Below, piece by piece: positions 11,061-16,003 of a DNA stretch of 64,000 nt (positions within the stretch are counted from its first letter, which is position 1; each line of letters starts with the position of its first letter). The notes under the pieces were generated by a model. That model saw only the letters and a program-made list of their open reading frames with translations. It searched no databases and was not told where the DNA came from. Source of the DNA: Geomonas oryzisoli (GTDB lineage: Bacteria; Desulfobacterota; Desulfuromonadia; Geobacterales; Geobacteraceae); assembly GCF_018986915.1 (NCBI RefSeq), contig NZ_CP076723.1, forward strand, positions 558,001 through 622,000, in the 5' to 3' direction. A program made the translations under genes and the position numbers.

Positions 11061-11891
11061 ATGCCATCTTTCGTCAAGTCAGCATTGGCCGTCCTGGCCG
11101 TCGTTTCCACCCTTGTGTCCCCCCCGACACCCTCAGCTGCGGAAACCCTCAGGATCAACGGCACCGGTGCAGGCCTGGTGGCCCTGAGGCCGCTGGTGGC
11201 AGCGTTCGAAAAGGAAAACCGCGGCGTCGTGGTCGATATGGAGAAAAGCCTCGGGAGTTCGGCCGCCATCAAGGCGTTATCGCGCAACGCGCTGGACCTC
11301 GCCGTTTCGGGGCGTCCCCTCAAACCGGCCGAAAGCGCCGAAGGACTGGTCCAGCAGCAGTGGGGGCGTGCTCCCTTTGCCGTGCTGGCCAATCGCCAGG
11401 TGCGGGTAACCGGGGTGAGCTTGAACGAGCTGGCGGGAATGTACGGCACGAGCAGCGCCAGGTGGCCCGGCGGCGAGCTGGTCCGGGTGGTGCTGCGCCC
11501 CAACGAAGACGTGGACACCAAGCTCACCCGCTCCATGTCGCCGGAGATGGACCGCGGGATGAGTGCCGCCCAGACGCGCAAGGACATGCTGCTGGGGATC
11601 ACCGACGACGAAGCCTTCGAACTCGTCAAGAAGACGGAAGGGGCAGTGGCGGTGATGGCGCTGTCGCTGCCGCTTTCCCAGCCCAACGCGGTCGCGGTCC
11701 TGAAGCTCGGCGGGGTTCAGCCGAGTGTGGCCAACGTCGCTTCGGGCAAGTACCGCTTTGTGAAGGAGATGCACCTGGTGACCAGGAAGGACGCTTCCTC
11801 CACGGTTGCCAGATTCATCAAGTTCCTGGACTCCAAAAAGGGCCGTGCCATCGCGGCGAAGCACGGCGTGCTCGTCACCGGGGTTAAATGA
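11061..11891 (+). CDS. PstS-like periplasmic binding protein
   Basis: 276 residues. A signal peptide (to about residue 29, ending PSAAE) precedes a type II periplasmic binding fold of the phosphate-binding kind: TLRINGTGAGL at the start, a phosphate-loop-like SLGSSAAIKAL, and AVSGRP mid-domain. No pst permease or ATPase genes follow. Its stop overlaps the ATG of the membrane GGDEF-EAL gene (ATGA), so the protein probably presents a ligand to that sensor rather than to a transporter. The ligand is unknown; an oxyanion is a guess from the fold. Confidence 0.75.
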   Translation: MPSFVKSALAVLAVVSTLVSPPTPSAAETLRINGTGAGLVALRPLVAAFEKENRGVVVDMEKSLGSSAAIKALSRNALDLAVSGRPLKPAESAEGLVQQQWGRAPFAVLANRQVRVTGVSLNELAGMYGTSSARWPGGELVRVVLRPNEDVDTKLTRSMSPEMDRGMSAAQTRKDMLLGITDDEAFELVKKTEGAVAVMALSLPLSQPNAVAVLKLGGVQPSVANVASGKYRFVKEMHLVTRKDASSTVARFIKFLDSKKGRAIAAKHGVLVTGVK

Positions 11892-14155
11892 TCAGGTACA
11901 GCCAGTCCATACGGCGCAGCACCACCCTGACCGCGGGGATACTCTCCGCGGTGCTGACCCTGATGCCGCCCGCGATCTACTTCGTGATGGCCTTCTCGCA
12001 CATGACCGGGGTCATCGAGACGGAGGGGGAGATCAACGCCCGCGTGGTGGGGACGCTGATAGTCGCGAACCCGAAGATGTGGGAGTTCGAGGAGTTGCGC
12101 CTGAGGGAGCTACTGGCGCGCCGTTCCACGGAAACCGCTGAAAAGCGGGTGCTTTACAACCTCAAGGGGGTGGTGATCGCCGAGAGCTCGGACAAGTTGC
12201 TTTCGCCGCTTTTATCCCAGTCATTTCCGGTGTACGATGCCGGGCACCAGGTTGCCAGACTGGAGGTGTCGCGGTCCCTGGCACCGACCCTCATGGTGAC
12301 TGCGCTGCTCTTCTGTCTGGGGGCTCTCACCGCCGGCTTCACCTTCTTCCGGCTGCGCACCGTGCCCCTCAGAGCCATAGAGGAAGCCTATCGCACCCTC
12401 AAACAGAGCGAGGAGAAGTACCGCTCGGTCTACGAGTCGCTCAACGAGGGGCTGGCCCTGTACCGCACCGTGCCCGGGAGCGGGGGGGAGACCGACCTCG
12501 TGCTCGCCGACATCAACCCCGTCGCCGTATCGGTCTTCGGCTTCGGACGCGACGACATCGGCAAGAGCATCCTGCAGGTGCAGGGGGGGCTGTTCGCGCC
12601 GGTCCGGGAGGCGCTCCGGCGGGAGTCGGGCGAGGTGAGCCTGGAACTGGAGCAGGAAGGGGCGGGGCGGGTCTTCACGGTGAACGCGTTTCCCATGGGG
12701 GACGGGATGGTGGCGACCCTGTTTGAGGACGTCACCGAGAAGAAGCGCAGCGCCGAACAGCTGGAGAATCTCGCCTACTACGACAGCCTCACCGGCCTTT
12801 TGAACCGGCGCATGCTGCTGGACCGGATGGAGCACACCATCGGCATGGCCCAGCGCGAAGGGATCAAGATGGCCACCCTCTTCTTCGACCTGAACGGGTT
12901 CAAGCCGATCAACGACACGCTGGGGCATGAGGCGGGGGACCAGATCCTGATCGAGGTGGCCCGGCGCTTGAAAAACGGGGTGCGCAAGAAGGACACCCTG
13001 GCGCGGCTGGGGGGGGACGAGTTCGTGGTGGTGGCGACCCTGGATACGGAGGAAAACGCTAGTTGCATCGCGCAGAACCTGCTCAGGAAGCTCACTCCGG
13101 TGTACGAGGTGGGCGGCAGGGAGGTCTACGTGGGAGCGAGCATTGGCATCTCGATCTATCCCGACGACGGCATCTCCCCCGAGACGCTGCTCAAGAACGC
13201 GGACATTGCCATGTACAACGCCAAGAAACCGGGCGTGGACTTCTGTTTCTACAGCGCGCAGATGAACCAGAAGCTCCTCGAGCGGACACGGCTCGAGTTC
13301 GAGCTCTGGATGGCGCTGGAGCGGGAGGAGTTCTTCCTTGAGTACCAGCCCATCGTGGACGCCCGCACCGGCAGGATCGCCGCGGTGGAGGCGCTGGTAC
13401 GCTGGATGAGTCCGGAAAAGGGGCGGGTGATGCCGGACTCCTTCATCCCGCTCGCCGAGGCTACCGGCATCATCGTGCCGCTGGGAGAATGGGTGCTGAA
13501 GACGGCCTGCACGAAGCTGCAGCAGTGGCTCGACGCGGGGTGTCTGCCGCTCAGGATGTCCGTCAACATCTCGGGGTGTCAGTTCATGCGCAGTGAACTG
13601 TGCCGTCTCGTCGAGGAGGCGGCGGACCAAAGCGGCGTGGATCTCGCCCTCCTCGAACTGGAACTCACCGAGACCTGCCTCATCAAGGACGTGGAGGAGA
13701 CTGCCACCAAACTGTGGCACCTGAAGGGGCTCAACGTCTCCATCGGCATCGACGATTTCGGCACGGGCTATTCGTCGCTGCAGTATCTGAAGAACTTCCC
13801 CATCGACCACCTGAAGATCGACCGCGCCTTCATCAAGAACGTCTGTGAGCTTCCCGACGAACGCGCCATCGTGGATGCCATCATCGGCATCGCCAAGGCG
13901 ATGGAGCTGCACGTGATCGCCGAGGGGGTGGAAACCCTGGAACAGGCGGAATACCTGGGACATCGTGGCTGCGACGAACTGCAGGGGTACTACTACCACC
14001 GCCCGCTCTCAGAGGAGCGCCTGCTCGAGGTGCTTCGGGAGGAGCGGGAGCGGCTGGCGCCGCCGGCAGGGGGCGCGGGAACAGGCGGGGAAGGAGATTC
14101 AAAAGCGGGCGATGCGGGGGGCGCAGGGGCGCCCGTGACGGCACAGCCGGTCTGA
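11888..14155 (+). CDS. Membrane PAS-GGDEF-EAL cyclic-di-GMP protein
   Basis: 755 residues. TM helices near 15-37 and 137-158 bracket a small periplasmic domain. A PAS segment (about 175-295) follows, then GGDEF (about 300-460) and EAL (about 475-725). RLGGDEF is intact with an RKKD inhibitory site five residues before it. The EAL motif (AAVEALVRW), IDDFGTGYSS, KIDRAF and AEGVET are intact, so both cyclase and phosphodiesterase activity are possible. The C-terminal tail is Gly/Ala-rich. The gene overlaps that of the upstream binding protein, suggesting periplasmic ligand control of c-di-GMP turnover. Confidence 0.92.
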   Translation: MIRYSQSIRRSTTLTAGILSAVLTLMPPAIYFVMAFSHMTGVIETEGEINARVVGTLIVANPKMWEFEELRLRELLARRSTETAEKRVLYNLKGVVIAESSDKLLSPLLSQSFPVYDAGHQVARLEVSRSLAPTLMVTALLFCLGALTAGFTFFRLRTVPLRAIEEAYRTLKQSEEKYRSVYESLNEGLALYRTVPGSGGETDLVLADINPVAVSVFGFGRDDIGKSILQVQGGLFAPVREALRRESGEVSLELEQEGAGRVFTVNAFPMGDGMVATLFEDVTEKKRSAEQLENLAYYDSLTGLLNRRMLLDRMEHTIGMAQREGIKMATLFFDLNGFKPINDTLGHEAGDQILIEVARRLKNGVRKKDTLARLGGDEFVVVATLDTEENASCIAQNLLRKLTPVYEVGGREVYVGASIGISIYPDDGISPETLLKNADIAMYNAKKPGVDFCFYSAQMNQKLLERTRLEFELWMALEREEFFLEYQPIVDARTGRIAAVEALVRWMSPEKGRVMPDSFIPLAEATGIIVPLGEWVLKTACTKLQQWLDAGCLPLRMSVNISGCQFMRSELCRLVEEAADQSGVDLALLELELTETCLIKDVEETATKLWHLKGLNVSIGIDDFGTGYSSLQYLKNFPIDHLKIDRAFIKNVCELPDERAIVDAIIGIAKAMELHVIAEGVETLEQAEYLGHRGCDELQGYYYHRPLSEERLLEVLREERERLAPPAGGAGTGGEGDSKAGDAGGAGAPVTAQPV

Positions 14156-14179
14156 ACGGCCGGTGTGGAAACGGAAAAA

Positions 14180-14208
14180 GGGGGCTCGTTCGAGCCCCCT
14201 TTTTTTTT
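14180..14208. terminator. Bidirectional terminator
   Basis: GGGGGCTCG pairs with CGAGCCCCC across TT (14180-14199) and is followed by nine T residues on the plus strand. AAAAA precedes it, so it can also end minus-strand transcripts of the thiamin operon. The stop codon of the 47-codon frame lies in the T-run. Confidence 0.9.
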
Positions 14209-14350
14209 AACTGCAGCCGCACCCTTTGGAGTTGTCTCCGCTCAGGGGGAGTTTCTTGCCACACTTCTGGCACCGCCAGAAGAGGCCACCTCAACCCGGC
14301 ATCAGGATCATGAGCCCCTGGCAGTCGGGGCAGCTTTTCTCGTTGGTCAT
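14207..14350 (-). CDS. Candidate small zinc-ribbon selenoprotein (in-frame UGA)
   Basis: AAAGGAGG lies 6 bases before ATG 14350. The frame reads MTNEKSCPDCQGLMILMPG, then TGA at 14291-14293, then GGLFWRCQKCGKK and on to GCGCS before TAA at 14207-14209. It is 47 residues if codon 20 is selenocysteine. CPDC and CQKC on either side of the UGA make one complete zinc ribbon, so the downstream part is clearly coding. From the 9th base after UGA, CUUCUGGC pairs perfectly with GCCAGAAG around a GGU loop. This puts the loop 16 bases from UGA with G first, as known for bacterial SECIS elements. It is the last gene of the thiamin operon, 31 bases after the FAH gene. The alternative is a nonsense-mutated gene. 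Confidence 0.55.
14264..14282 (-). promoter_or_regulatory. SECIS-like hairpin immediately after the in-frame UGA
   Basis: On the minus strand CTTCTGGC, GGT, GCCAGAAG forms an uninterrupted 8-bp stem with a 3-base loop. A lower GCC/GGC stem is possible beyond an internal loop with an unpaired U. The distance of 16 bases from UGA to the loop and the loop sequence GGU fit the bacterial SECIS pattern known from fdhF. Function is inferred. Confidence 0.5.
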
Positions 14351-14381: not shown

Positions 14382-15038
14382 TTACCTTACCGAAACGGCG
14401 ATGCTCCCCACCCCGGCGATCTCGGCGACCACCCGGTCGCCGCTCTTGATCGGGCCGACGCCCGCGGGCGTGCCGGTCAGTACCAGGTCCCCCGGCTCCA
14501 GCGTGAAGATGGAGGAGAGGTAGCTCAACAGCTCGGGGATGCGGTGGATCATGAGATCGGTGCCGCCGTCCTGGCGCTTCTCGCCGTTCACGGCGAGGGT
14601 GATGCGCAACTGGTGCGGGTCGGCCACCTGCGCGGCGGGAACGAACGGGGACAGCGGGCAGGCGGTGTCGAACCCCTTGGCGATGTCCCAGGGGAGCCCC
14701 TTCTTTTTCAGTTCCGCCTGCACGTCACGCAGGGTCAGGTCGATGGCGACGGCGTACCCCGCCACGTGGGAGAGCGCCCGCTCGGGGGGGATGTTGCTCC
14801 CCGTGCTGCCGATCATAAGCGCCAGTTCCGCCTCGTGGTGGCAGTCGCTGGAATAGGAGGGGATCACGATCTCCTCCCCCGCGCCGATCACGCTGGAGGC
14901 GGGCTTGGTGAAGATCACCGGACGCTCCGGGGTCTCGTTGCCCAGCTCCTTGATGTGGTCCGCGTAGTTGCGCCCGATGCAGAGGATCTTGCCGATCCGT
15001 ACCGGCTCCGCGGAGCCGATCAGTTGTGCCGTCTTCAT
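14382..15038 (-). CDS. Fumarylacetoacetate hydrolase-family protein
   Basis: 218-residue single-domain FAH-fold enzyme acting on C-C or C-O bonds of acylpyruvate-like compounds. Seen motifs are ILCIGRNYADHIKELG, the metal-binding HHEAELALMIG, and the C-terminal LEPGDLVLTGTPAGVGP. The ATG at 15038 is preceded by GAGGAG. It follows the radical SAM gene by 11 bases in the same operon. The substrate is unknown; acylpyruvate hydrolase or oxaloacetate tautomerase are the usual possibilities for single-domain members. Confidence 0.85.
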   Translation of the reverse strand: MKTAQLIGSAEPVRIGKILCIGRNYADHIKELGNETPERPVIFTKPASSVIGAGEEIVIPSYSSDCHHEAELALMIGSTGSNIPPERALSHVAGYAVAIDLTLRDVQAELKKKGLPWDIAKGFDTACPLSPFVPAAQVADPHQLRITLAVNGEKRQDGGTDLMIHRIPELLSYLSSIFTLEPGDLVLTGTPAGVGPIKSGDRVVAEIAGVGSIAVSVR

Positions 15039-15049
15039 GGTTCTCCTCT

Positions 15050-16003
15050 TCAGGCCGCCCTGACCTCGCTGTTCAGCCGGCATCCCTGCCAGCTGCCGCG
15101 CCTTCTCAGCTCGTTGATCACGGCGTACCACATCTGGTTGTTCTTCAGGTTCCAGTTCGGCGCGACCCGGATGGCAAGGGGCGCCGAGCCGTACAGCCGC
15201 TGCACGGTGACCCGCGCCGGGAGCTCCTCAAGGAAGTCGCAGACGGTCGCCACGTACTCGTCGATGCCGATCGGCTGCCAGCTCCCGTCCCGGTACATCT
15301 CGGCGAGCCTCGTGTTCTCGACCGCGTGCAGCTGGTGCAGCTTCACCGAGTTGACCGGGAGACCGGCGATGAGGCGGGCGGTCTTCAGGAAGCCGCTCCT
15401 GGTTTCGCCGGGGAAGCCGTAGATCAGATGGGTGCAGATCTCGAGGCCGCGTCCGGAGAGCCGCTCGACCGCGTCGAGGTACTCGGCCAGGGTGTGGCCG
15501 CGGTTGATCCGGGAGAGGATGGCGTCGTCCATGGACTGCAGGCCGAGCTCCACGCAGACGTAGTGCTCGCGGGCCAGGTCGGTCAGCAGTTCGACTGCGG
15601 CCGGGCTCAGCGAATCGGGGCGGGTCCCCACCGAGATGCCCAGGACGTCCGGGTGGGCCAGGGCGCGCCGGTACAGGTCCGCCAGCTTGTCCGCCGGGCC
15701 GTAGGTGTTGGTGTACTTCTGGAAGTAGACGATGAACTTCTCGCTCCCCAGCCGCTCGCGGTGGTAGGCCATCCCCGCCGCCATCTGCTCCTCGACCGGG
15801 ATCAGGGCCTGGGTCTCCTTGGGAGAGAAGGAACTGTTGTCGCAGTAGATGCATCCGCCGGTGCCGCGGCTGCCGTCGCGGTTGGGGCAGGTGAAGCCGC
15901 CGTCCACGTTCACCTTGCTGACGCGGCAGCCGAAGCGGCGCCTTACGTACGAGCCGTAGGAATTGATGCGGAGTTCGCTATGGATCGGTTCGCCGAGTGT
16001 CAT
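15050..16003 (-). CDS. Radical SAM protein of the YhcC/TIGR01212 type
   Basis: 317 residues. The N-terminal cluster motif CPNRDGSRGTGGCIYC supplies the three Cys of a radical SAM [4Fe-4S] cluster with the long spacing of the TIGR01212 family (YhcC in E. coli). Other family segments are YFQKYTNTYGP, GTRPDSL, ELGLQSMDD and HLIYGFPGET. The reaction is not established for the family. The start ATG is immediately next to the thiE stop, so the genes are co-transcribed. No thiC or thiH is nearby. Confidence 0.85.
   Translation of the reverse strand: MTLGEPIHSELRINSYGSYVRRRFGCRVSKVNVDGGFTCPNRDGSRGTGGCIYCDNSSFSPKETQALIPVEEQMAAGMAYHRERLGSEKFIVYFQKYTNTYGPADKLADLYRRALAHPDVLGISVGTRPDSLSPAAVELLTDLAREHYVCVELGLQSMDDAILSRINRGHTLAEYLDAVERLSGRGLEICTHLIYGFPGETRSGFLKTARLIAGLPVNSVKLHQLHAVENTRLAEMYRDGSWQPIGIDEYVATVCDFLEELPARVTVQRLYGSAPLAIRVAPNWNLKNNQMWYAVINELRRRGSWQGCRLNSEVRAA

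Follow-up and report, generated by a model that had tools for sequence, protein, structure and literature searches.

The locus

The window is the whole stretch of 64,000 nucleotides of Geomonas oryzisoli DNA that was analysed. On its minus strand, directly behind a FAHD1-like gene, lies a short frame that is interrupted by one in-frame TGA and that is almost certainly the gene of a small selenoprotein. The features of the locus are:

15050-16003, minus strand: radical SAM protein gene, upstream
14382-15038, minus strand: FAHD1-like acylpyruvase gene of the FAA hydrolase family (PF01557, 224 bits; best PDB sequence match FAHD1)
14365-14358, minus strand: ribosome-binding site AAAGGAGG, from the sequence, 7 bases 5' of the ATG
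14350-14207, minus strand: coding sequence of the predicted selenoprotein, ATG at 14350-14348, stop TAA at 14209-14207, 47 residues, selenocysteine (Sec) at residue 20
14291-14293, minus strand: UGA codon (codon 20), predicted to be decoded as selenocysteine
14258-14286, minus strand: SECIS-type hairpin, from the fold
14286-14284 / 14260-14258, minus strand: its lower stem, 3 bp, from the fold
14282-14275 / 14271-14264, minus strand: its upper stem, 8 bp, from the fold
14274-14272, minus strand: its GGU loop, from the fold
14175-14204, minus strand: terminator-like hairpin 3' of the TAA, 13 pairs including A/T runs, 4-base loop, from the fold

Upstream in the window are genes for ThiG, ThiE, the radical SAM protein and the FAA hydrolase, the last of which is 31 bases from the selenoprotein gene and on the same strand.

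Translation of 14350-14207 (minus strand) gives MTNEKSCPDCQGLMILMPGUGGLFWRCQKCGKKLPLSGDNSKGCGCS*, with one in-frame TGA. The original prediction, which gave no strand, had proposed a 47-codon frame with a good ribosome site and a single TGA at 14291-14293, with CPDC before it and CQKC after it, and all of this is borne out on the minus strand. The two CxxC knuckles supply four cysteines, C7, C10, C27 and C30. With a loose pattern, a Shine-Dalgarno-like sequence is seen in 43 of 44 genes of the subfamily, the window included.

The terminator-like hairpin at 14175-14204 is absent from the output of the pattern scan. As an A/T-flanked palindrome it may also terminate the convergent plus strand gene at 11888-14155, which from its sequence we take to be of the GGDEF/EAL type.

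Conservation of the frame and of the UGA

Relatives were counted in 39 close genomes (own included), in 277 genomes of the class and in genome_contigs, which by its description covers 84,980 species. The counts from the three sets overlap, and some contig loci are near-identical pairs (e.g. L104/L105 and L118/L119). A protein search finds a strong match in 21 of the 39 close genomes, each with exactly one TGA and with identities of 98 to 60% when Sec is scored as a mismatch; in Geomonas the gene is present in 15 of 19 genomes. At the level of the class, 66 of the 277 genomes (own included) match at E <= 0.01 in a profile search: 56 have a strong match (E <= 2e-15) with one TGA each, one copy (G478) is split by a frameshift, and nine genomes have weak matches only. 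The genome_contigs scan adds 45 loci in named records, hosted by Geomonas, Citrifermentans, Geotalea, Oryzomonas, Geomobilimonas, Trichlorobacter, Geobacter, related MAGs and one Methylomirabilota MAG. We refer to these genes as the PGU subfamily.

At the UGA site the codon is TGA in 45 of 45 contig loci, 21 of 21 close-genome matches and 56 of 56 strong class matches. No cysteine or other sense codon, TAA or TAG occurs there in the close genomes, the class genomes or the contig loci, so that a sense codon other than Cys in close relatives, named in the original prediction as a refuting case, is not seen. On both sides of the UGA the coding sequence is conserved in the close, class and contig copies. 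Close Cys forms were detectable in the genome_contigs scan, because one of its two peptide patterns carried Cys at the site, and still no Cys form of the PGU subfamily was found. Of the expected homologues with Cys or TGA, those with TGA make up all copies of the subfamily that were found, and those with Cys occur only in the sister family NF041197, which is described below; the classical comparison of Sec and Cys forms is thus available only by way of that family, which counts against the selenoprotein reading.

Two copies deserve separate mention. The one in Geotalea toluenoxydans (L125:4001-4146, identical with the G478 copy) has a one-base frameshift just 3' of the UGA, from either decay or sequencing error. 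The one in the Methylomirabilota MAG (L124:4001-4117) is a longer-tailed relative that keeps the UGA and the same 8-bp stem with the loop GUU; it sits between a starch-synthase-like gene and a gene of the metallo-beta-lactamase superfamily, in a genome that carries selB. Transfer between phyla is a possible origin of this copy.

Further away the signal fades. Six distant matches in the phylum comprise two NF041197-like genes with TGA (L045, L046), three other zinc ribbons (L047-L049) and one partial match (L050), and a class genome with only a weak match to the PGU profile (G401) also matched in the NF041197 search. No match to the selenoprotein is found in plasmids.

The gene is dispensable, since 18 of the 39 close genomes have no strong match although selB is above its cut-off in all 39 (own included). 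Of these 18 genomes, 14 still have a match to the FAA hydrolase at E <= 1e-20. Downstream of the 15 best-matching FAA hydrolase genes in them, up to 420 bases were read, leaving out three weaker second copies of the hydrolase, and no dual-CxxC frame is present. As the gene-less genomes keep the hydrolase without such a frame, the small gene seems to have been lost whole, and its conversion to a Cys form is not seen.

The SECIS-type hairpin and selection at the RNA level

The hairpin reads CUUCUGGC-GGU-GCCAGAAG, with eight perfect pairs and G as the first loop base. It begins 8 bases 3' of the UGA, which places the loop at a distance of 16 bases, and three further pairs extend the stem below. 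Published constraints for bacterial SECIS elements (bSECIS), as given in the 2026 review PMC13188914, are a loop of 3-9 nt, a stem of 4-16 bp, a G as first or second base of the loop, a distance of 16-37 nt from the UGA and a minimum free energy (MFE) <= -7.5. The hairpin agrees with each of those constraints, with a 3-nt GGU loop, an 8-bp stem, a spacing of 16 nt and an energy of -16.7 kcal/mol. The stem, loop, leading G, spacing and fit to the bacterial SECIS rule had all been anticipated correctly from the sequence.

The energy of -16.7 kcal/mol refers to 42 nt, for which z is -2.87 and one of 200 shuffles is equally good. When 54 nt of the same region are folded, z shrinks to -0.73, with equally good energies in 44 of 200 shuffles, so the stability of the hairpin is weak evidence by itself. 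Rfam yields eight matches in the vicinity at E <= 1, all of them below their gathering scores.

Decisive instead is the conservation of the frame and its TGA described above, to which the pattern of codon use adds. Codon use was tabulated for 44 genes, namely 43 contig loci and the window, 43 of the 44 being distinct over the stretch compared; the Methylomirabilota copy (other phylum) and the L125 copy (frameshift) are excluded. The codons +3 to +9 after the UGA (CTC TTC TGG CGG TGC CAG AAG) are identical in all 44 genes but for one CTC to CAC, and the 8-bp stem and its loop are identical in 44 of 44. The refuting case of a hairpin that is not conserved is thus not seen, and even in the Methylomirabilota MAG the stem is the same and only the loop differs. 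Elsewhere in these genes synonymous codons are in use: Cys -13 is TGC in 36 and TGT in 8, Cys +10 is TGC in 35 and TGT in 9, Leu -4 is written with five codons and Gly +11 with four.

Codon changes were also counted on a tree of the adjacent FAA hydrolase with 39 tips (38 contig loci and the window, each with more than 170 matched residues). Codons +4 to +9 show no change and codon +3 no third-base change. On the same tree there are 5, 5 and 6 changes at Cys +10, Cys -10 and Cys -13, respectively, and 8 to 11 at Pro -2, Leu -4, Gly +1, Gly +2 and Gly +11. Where codon +3 does differ, as His CAC in one locus (L115) and Ser TCC in the Methylomirabilota copy, the third base, a C that is the first base of the stem, is retained. 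Because the stem is invariant in the 44 genes, pairing cannot be proven by covariation.

Decoding of the UGA

The genome, a single contig of 4.85 Mb, contains the machinery for selenocysteine insertion: selA (600.7 bits, cut-off 267.9), selB (393.5 bits, cut-off 242.25) and tRNA-Sec with anticodon TCA (74.9 bits, gathering score 47). The genome check for selA, selB and selC that had been suggested thus comes out positive, and the absence of selB and selC, a further refuting case, is not seen. Two of the close genomes (G003 and G020) have two selB matches above cut-off each, and no strong match to the selenoprotein.

A UGA that is always TGA, hairpin codons free of synonymous change and the presence of the machinery together make it almost sure that the UGA stands for selenocysteine, and we regard 14350-14207 with very high confidence, from sequence comparison, as a functional selenoprotein gene. 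The ribosome would begin at the ATG at 14350 and reach the UGA at codon 20. The hairpin 8 bases past it would recruit SelB with Sec-tRNA (anticodon UCA), selenocysteine would be inserted, and translation would then run on to the TAA.

Two other ways of reading the UGA have to be considered. It could be an ordinary stop, so that a peptide or leader of 19 residues is made and the remainder is decayed or non-coding. The frame is indeed short, and TGA is a normal stop elsewhere, ending 13 of the 44 genes of the PGU subfamily themselves. However, conservation is no lower behind the UGA than ahead of it: C+10 and G+11 vary synonymously, and +13 shows nothing but a K/R exchange. Further, a zinc ribbon requires both halves, and neither TAA nor TAG occupies the site in any match, which makes an ordinary stop very improbable. 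It is just as hard to believe that a near-cognate tRNA reads through the UGA without selenium, so that the cell could switch between two products, one short and one long. A strong hairpin 3' of a stop codon could in principle promote such read-through, but no stop other than TGA is seen at the site, and in the sister family the same position holds TGA or Cys. The Sec machinery is present, and the hairpin satisfies the published bSECIS constraints. Insertion of selenocysteine is therefore the reading we adopt.

Ordinary annotation would probably miss the gene, because TGA read as a stop leaves 19 residues and no NCBIfam model reaches its cut-off; in general, ordinary gene finders probably miss this subfamily.

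Gene neighbourhood

The original prediction placed the gene at the end of a thiamin operon. This is true in the window, but it is not general: of 46 loci, among them the window and one locus without room, 40 have an FAHD1-like gene next to the selenoprotein gene, and 21 have ThiG or ThiE in the flanks. Thiamin genes were rejected as the conserved context on these counts. Full 4 kb upstream are available for 37 of the 46 loci. In 39 of the 44 contig loci with room, the FAA hydrolase gene is directly upstream on the same strand, its match ending within about 120 bases; in the remaining ones it is 1 kb off (one locus) or gives no match (four). The radical SAM gene is in the flanks of 20 of 46 loci, the window included.

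Among the loci with other neighbours, one without the FAA hydrolase has a pyridine nucleotide-disulfide oxidoreductase-rhodanese fusion upstream on the same strand (L098:2163-3851), and L104 has a phosphoglycerate mutase gene upstream instead. Near the genes of NF041197 type, no FAA hydrolase match is found in flanks of about 1.5 kb at the best-scoring 32 loci. In 10 of these 32 loci, Cys forms of NF041197 (L058-L064, L068-L070) lie directly 3' of one and the same gene, which is presumably orotate-phosphoribosyltransferase-like, judging by its sequence.

Structure and possible function

An AlphaFold model was made from a 19-row alignment with Sec entered as Cys. It has a mean pLDDT of 75.6, strands at 13-19 and 22-27 and a tail below 50. 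According to its secondary structure, a beta-hairpin connects the two knuckles, and Sec20 sits at the turn of this hairpin. A Foldseek search with the model returns mostly zinc ribbons (RNA polymerase subunits, TFIIS, topoisomerase I complexes, ZifS), every E being above 0.2. Based on the motif and on this moderate-confidence model, the product probably binds zinc as a four-cysteine zinc ribbon.

A structural zinc site would hold the fold, while the selenolate would react with an oxidant, a disulfide or an electrophile. The cysteines of the tail, where 41 of 44 sequences have a close Cys pair, would then resolve the reacted selenolate, and such a small redox protein may serve the FAHD1-like enzyme encoded upstream. 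We offer this as the most likely function, and tentatively so.

The main rival on function is that the Sec is a ligand for a metal or metalloid. The protein would then be a five-chalcogen (four Cys and one Sec) sensor, buffer or chaperone instead of a redox catalyst, with mercury, arsenic and even selenium among the candidate soft metals. In the 22-row alignment of NF041197 (22 of the 32 best-scoring loci of that type), no column is invariant apart from the five Cys/Sec positions, and the further Cys pair in the tails also agrees with such a role. Metal-ligand roles have been proposed for some other Sec residues (PMC13188914). On the other hand, the model's secondary structure puts the Sec at a hairpin turn, distant in sequence from the four cysteines, and the gene that is conserved next door codes for an FAA hydrolase, not for metal resistance. 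We consider a ligand role somewhat doubtful, and keep the small redox protein as our working assumption.

In TFIIS, key residues are presented at the tip of its zinc ribbon. Conceivably, though we think it unlikely, the Geobacter-group proteins are a selenium-only branch, as yet without a known Cys member, of a wider superfamily of zinc ribbons with Sec at the fingertip, and the FAHD1-like acylpyruvase has in them a dedicated partner or redox guard. If this were true, selenium supply would tune the FAHD1-like step of central carbon metabolism.

Whatever its function, the gene adds a conserved selenoprotein subfamily to metal-reducing and soil bacteria, and its nearly fixed FAHD1-like neighbour offers a direct way into that function. 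Almost every selenoprotein has homologues with Cys, a rule on which one search strategy is built (PMC13188914). The Sec-only pattern of the PGU subfamily is unusual against that rule.

Relationship to known selenoproteins and zinc ribbons

No Pfam family is above cut-off for the selenoprotein. The NCBIfam model NF041197 matches with 24.2 bits (E 2.7e-5), below its cut-off of 40, and only over model positions 1-31 of 53; the C-terminal part of the model (32-53) is unmatched by the Geomonas protein. All 19 rows of an alignment of close-genome loci (19 of 21; L014 and L015 excluded) match the model at E <= 0.1. In a profile comparison, our residues 7-37 align onto NF041197 1-31 with Sec on the Sec/Cys column (probability 96.5%, E 8.6e-10).

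The distribution of NF041197 itself is different. It is found in 80 of 297 sampled genomes of the phylum (63 above cut-off) and above cut-off in none of the 277 class genomes, four of which have weaker matches; five class matches that were read have no Sec/Cys column. Among the best-scoring 32 NF041197-type loci of a longer list, 15 have TGA and 17 Cys at the middle position.

NF041197 is described as a dual CXXC motif small (seleno)protein, of RxU type (OS_HP3). It shares with our protein the arrangement CxxC-x9-[U/C]-x6-CxxC with equal spacing. Our subfamily differs from it in the signature PGUGGLFWRCQKCG, in a terminal Cys pair and in that no Cys forms were found. The longer C-terminal tail of NF041197, mostly ending in DR/NR or IIYD, is absent from ours. 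Both OS_HP3 (motif RxU) and hypothetical protein DW (GxU) are filed under NF041197 in PMC13188914, the latter being a small Sec protein from deep-Sep (PMC12013277). PGU fits neither motif, and on this basis we treat our protein not as a member of NF041197 but as a divergent, Geobacter-group sister subfamily of this known kind. The idea of a possible new small selenoprotein thus holds as far as Sec decoding is concerned, but others of this kind were known before.

The phylum also contains further short dual-CXXC genes (L157-L174), mostly with an in-frame TGA, which have GR, GK, GN or GT before the Sec, as opposed to PG in ours, and which we call the GRU type after the GRU that most of them carry ahead of the second knuckle; several of their genomes also hold the RxU type. 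Their rows are below the NF041197 cut-off in the whole-genome search. A GRU alignment (11 of 20 stretches) compares with the RxU type at a probability of 97.5%, and directly with ours at 3.8% (E 0.011), which is not significant; the GRU type is therefore linked to ours through the RxU type. From the fit to the GxU motif we infer that the GRU-type loci correspond to hypothetical protein DW. At least three Sec-bearing sequence types of this protein kind thus exist: RxU, GxU-like and PGU.

In the passages of open-access papers that were consulted, no description of the PGU subfamily was found. A survey from 2006 lists eight selenoproteins for each of three Geobacter species, and in its accessible part no name resembles the PGU protein (PMC1794560). 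For G. sulfurreducens PL, the deep-Sep table apparently counts 13 selenoprotein genes that were known and none that is new (PMC12013277).

Another known kind with two CxxC motifs is the FmdB-family CxxC_CxxC putative regulatory protein with Sec (TIGR02605), whose motif is UxxU or U/CxxU (PMC13188914, PMC9312934). Judging by that motif, its Sec replaces a cysteine of a CxxC, whereas our protein has both CxxC pairs intact and the Sec as an additional, fifth position between them. In structure, most of the best Foldseek matches of the model, all at E above 0.2, are zinc ribbons of RNA polymerase small subunits, TFIIS and topoisomerase I, and the small zinc-finger protein ZifS of Thermus thermophilus. 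These ribbons are without Sec, and our protein carries no sign of a transcription role in its sequence.
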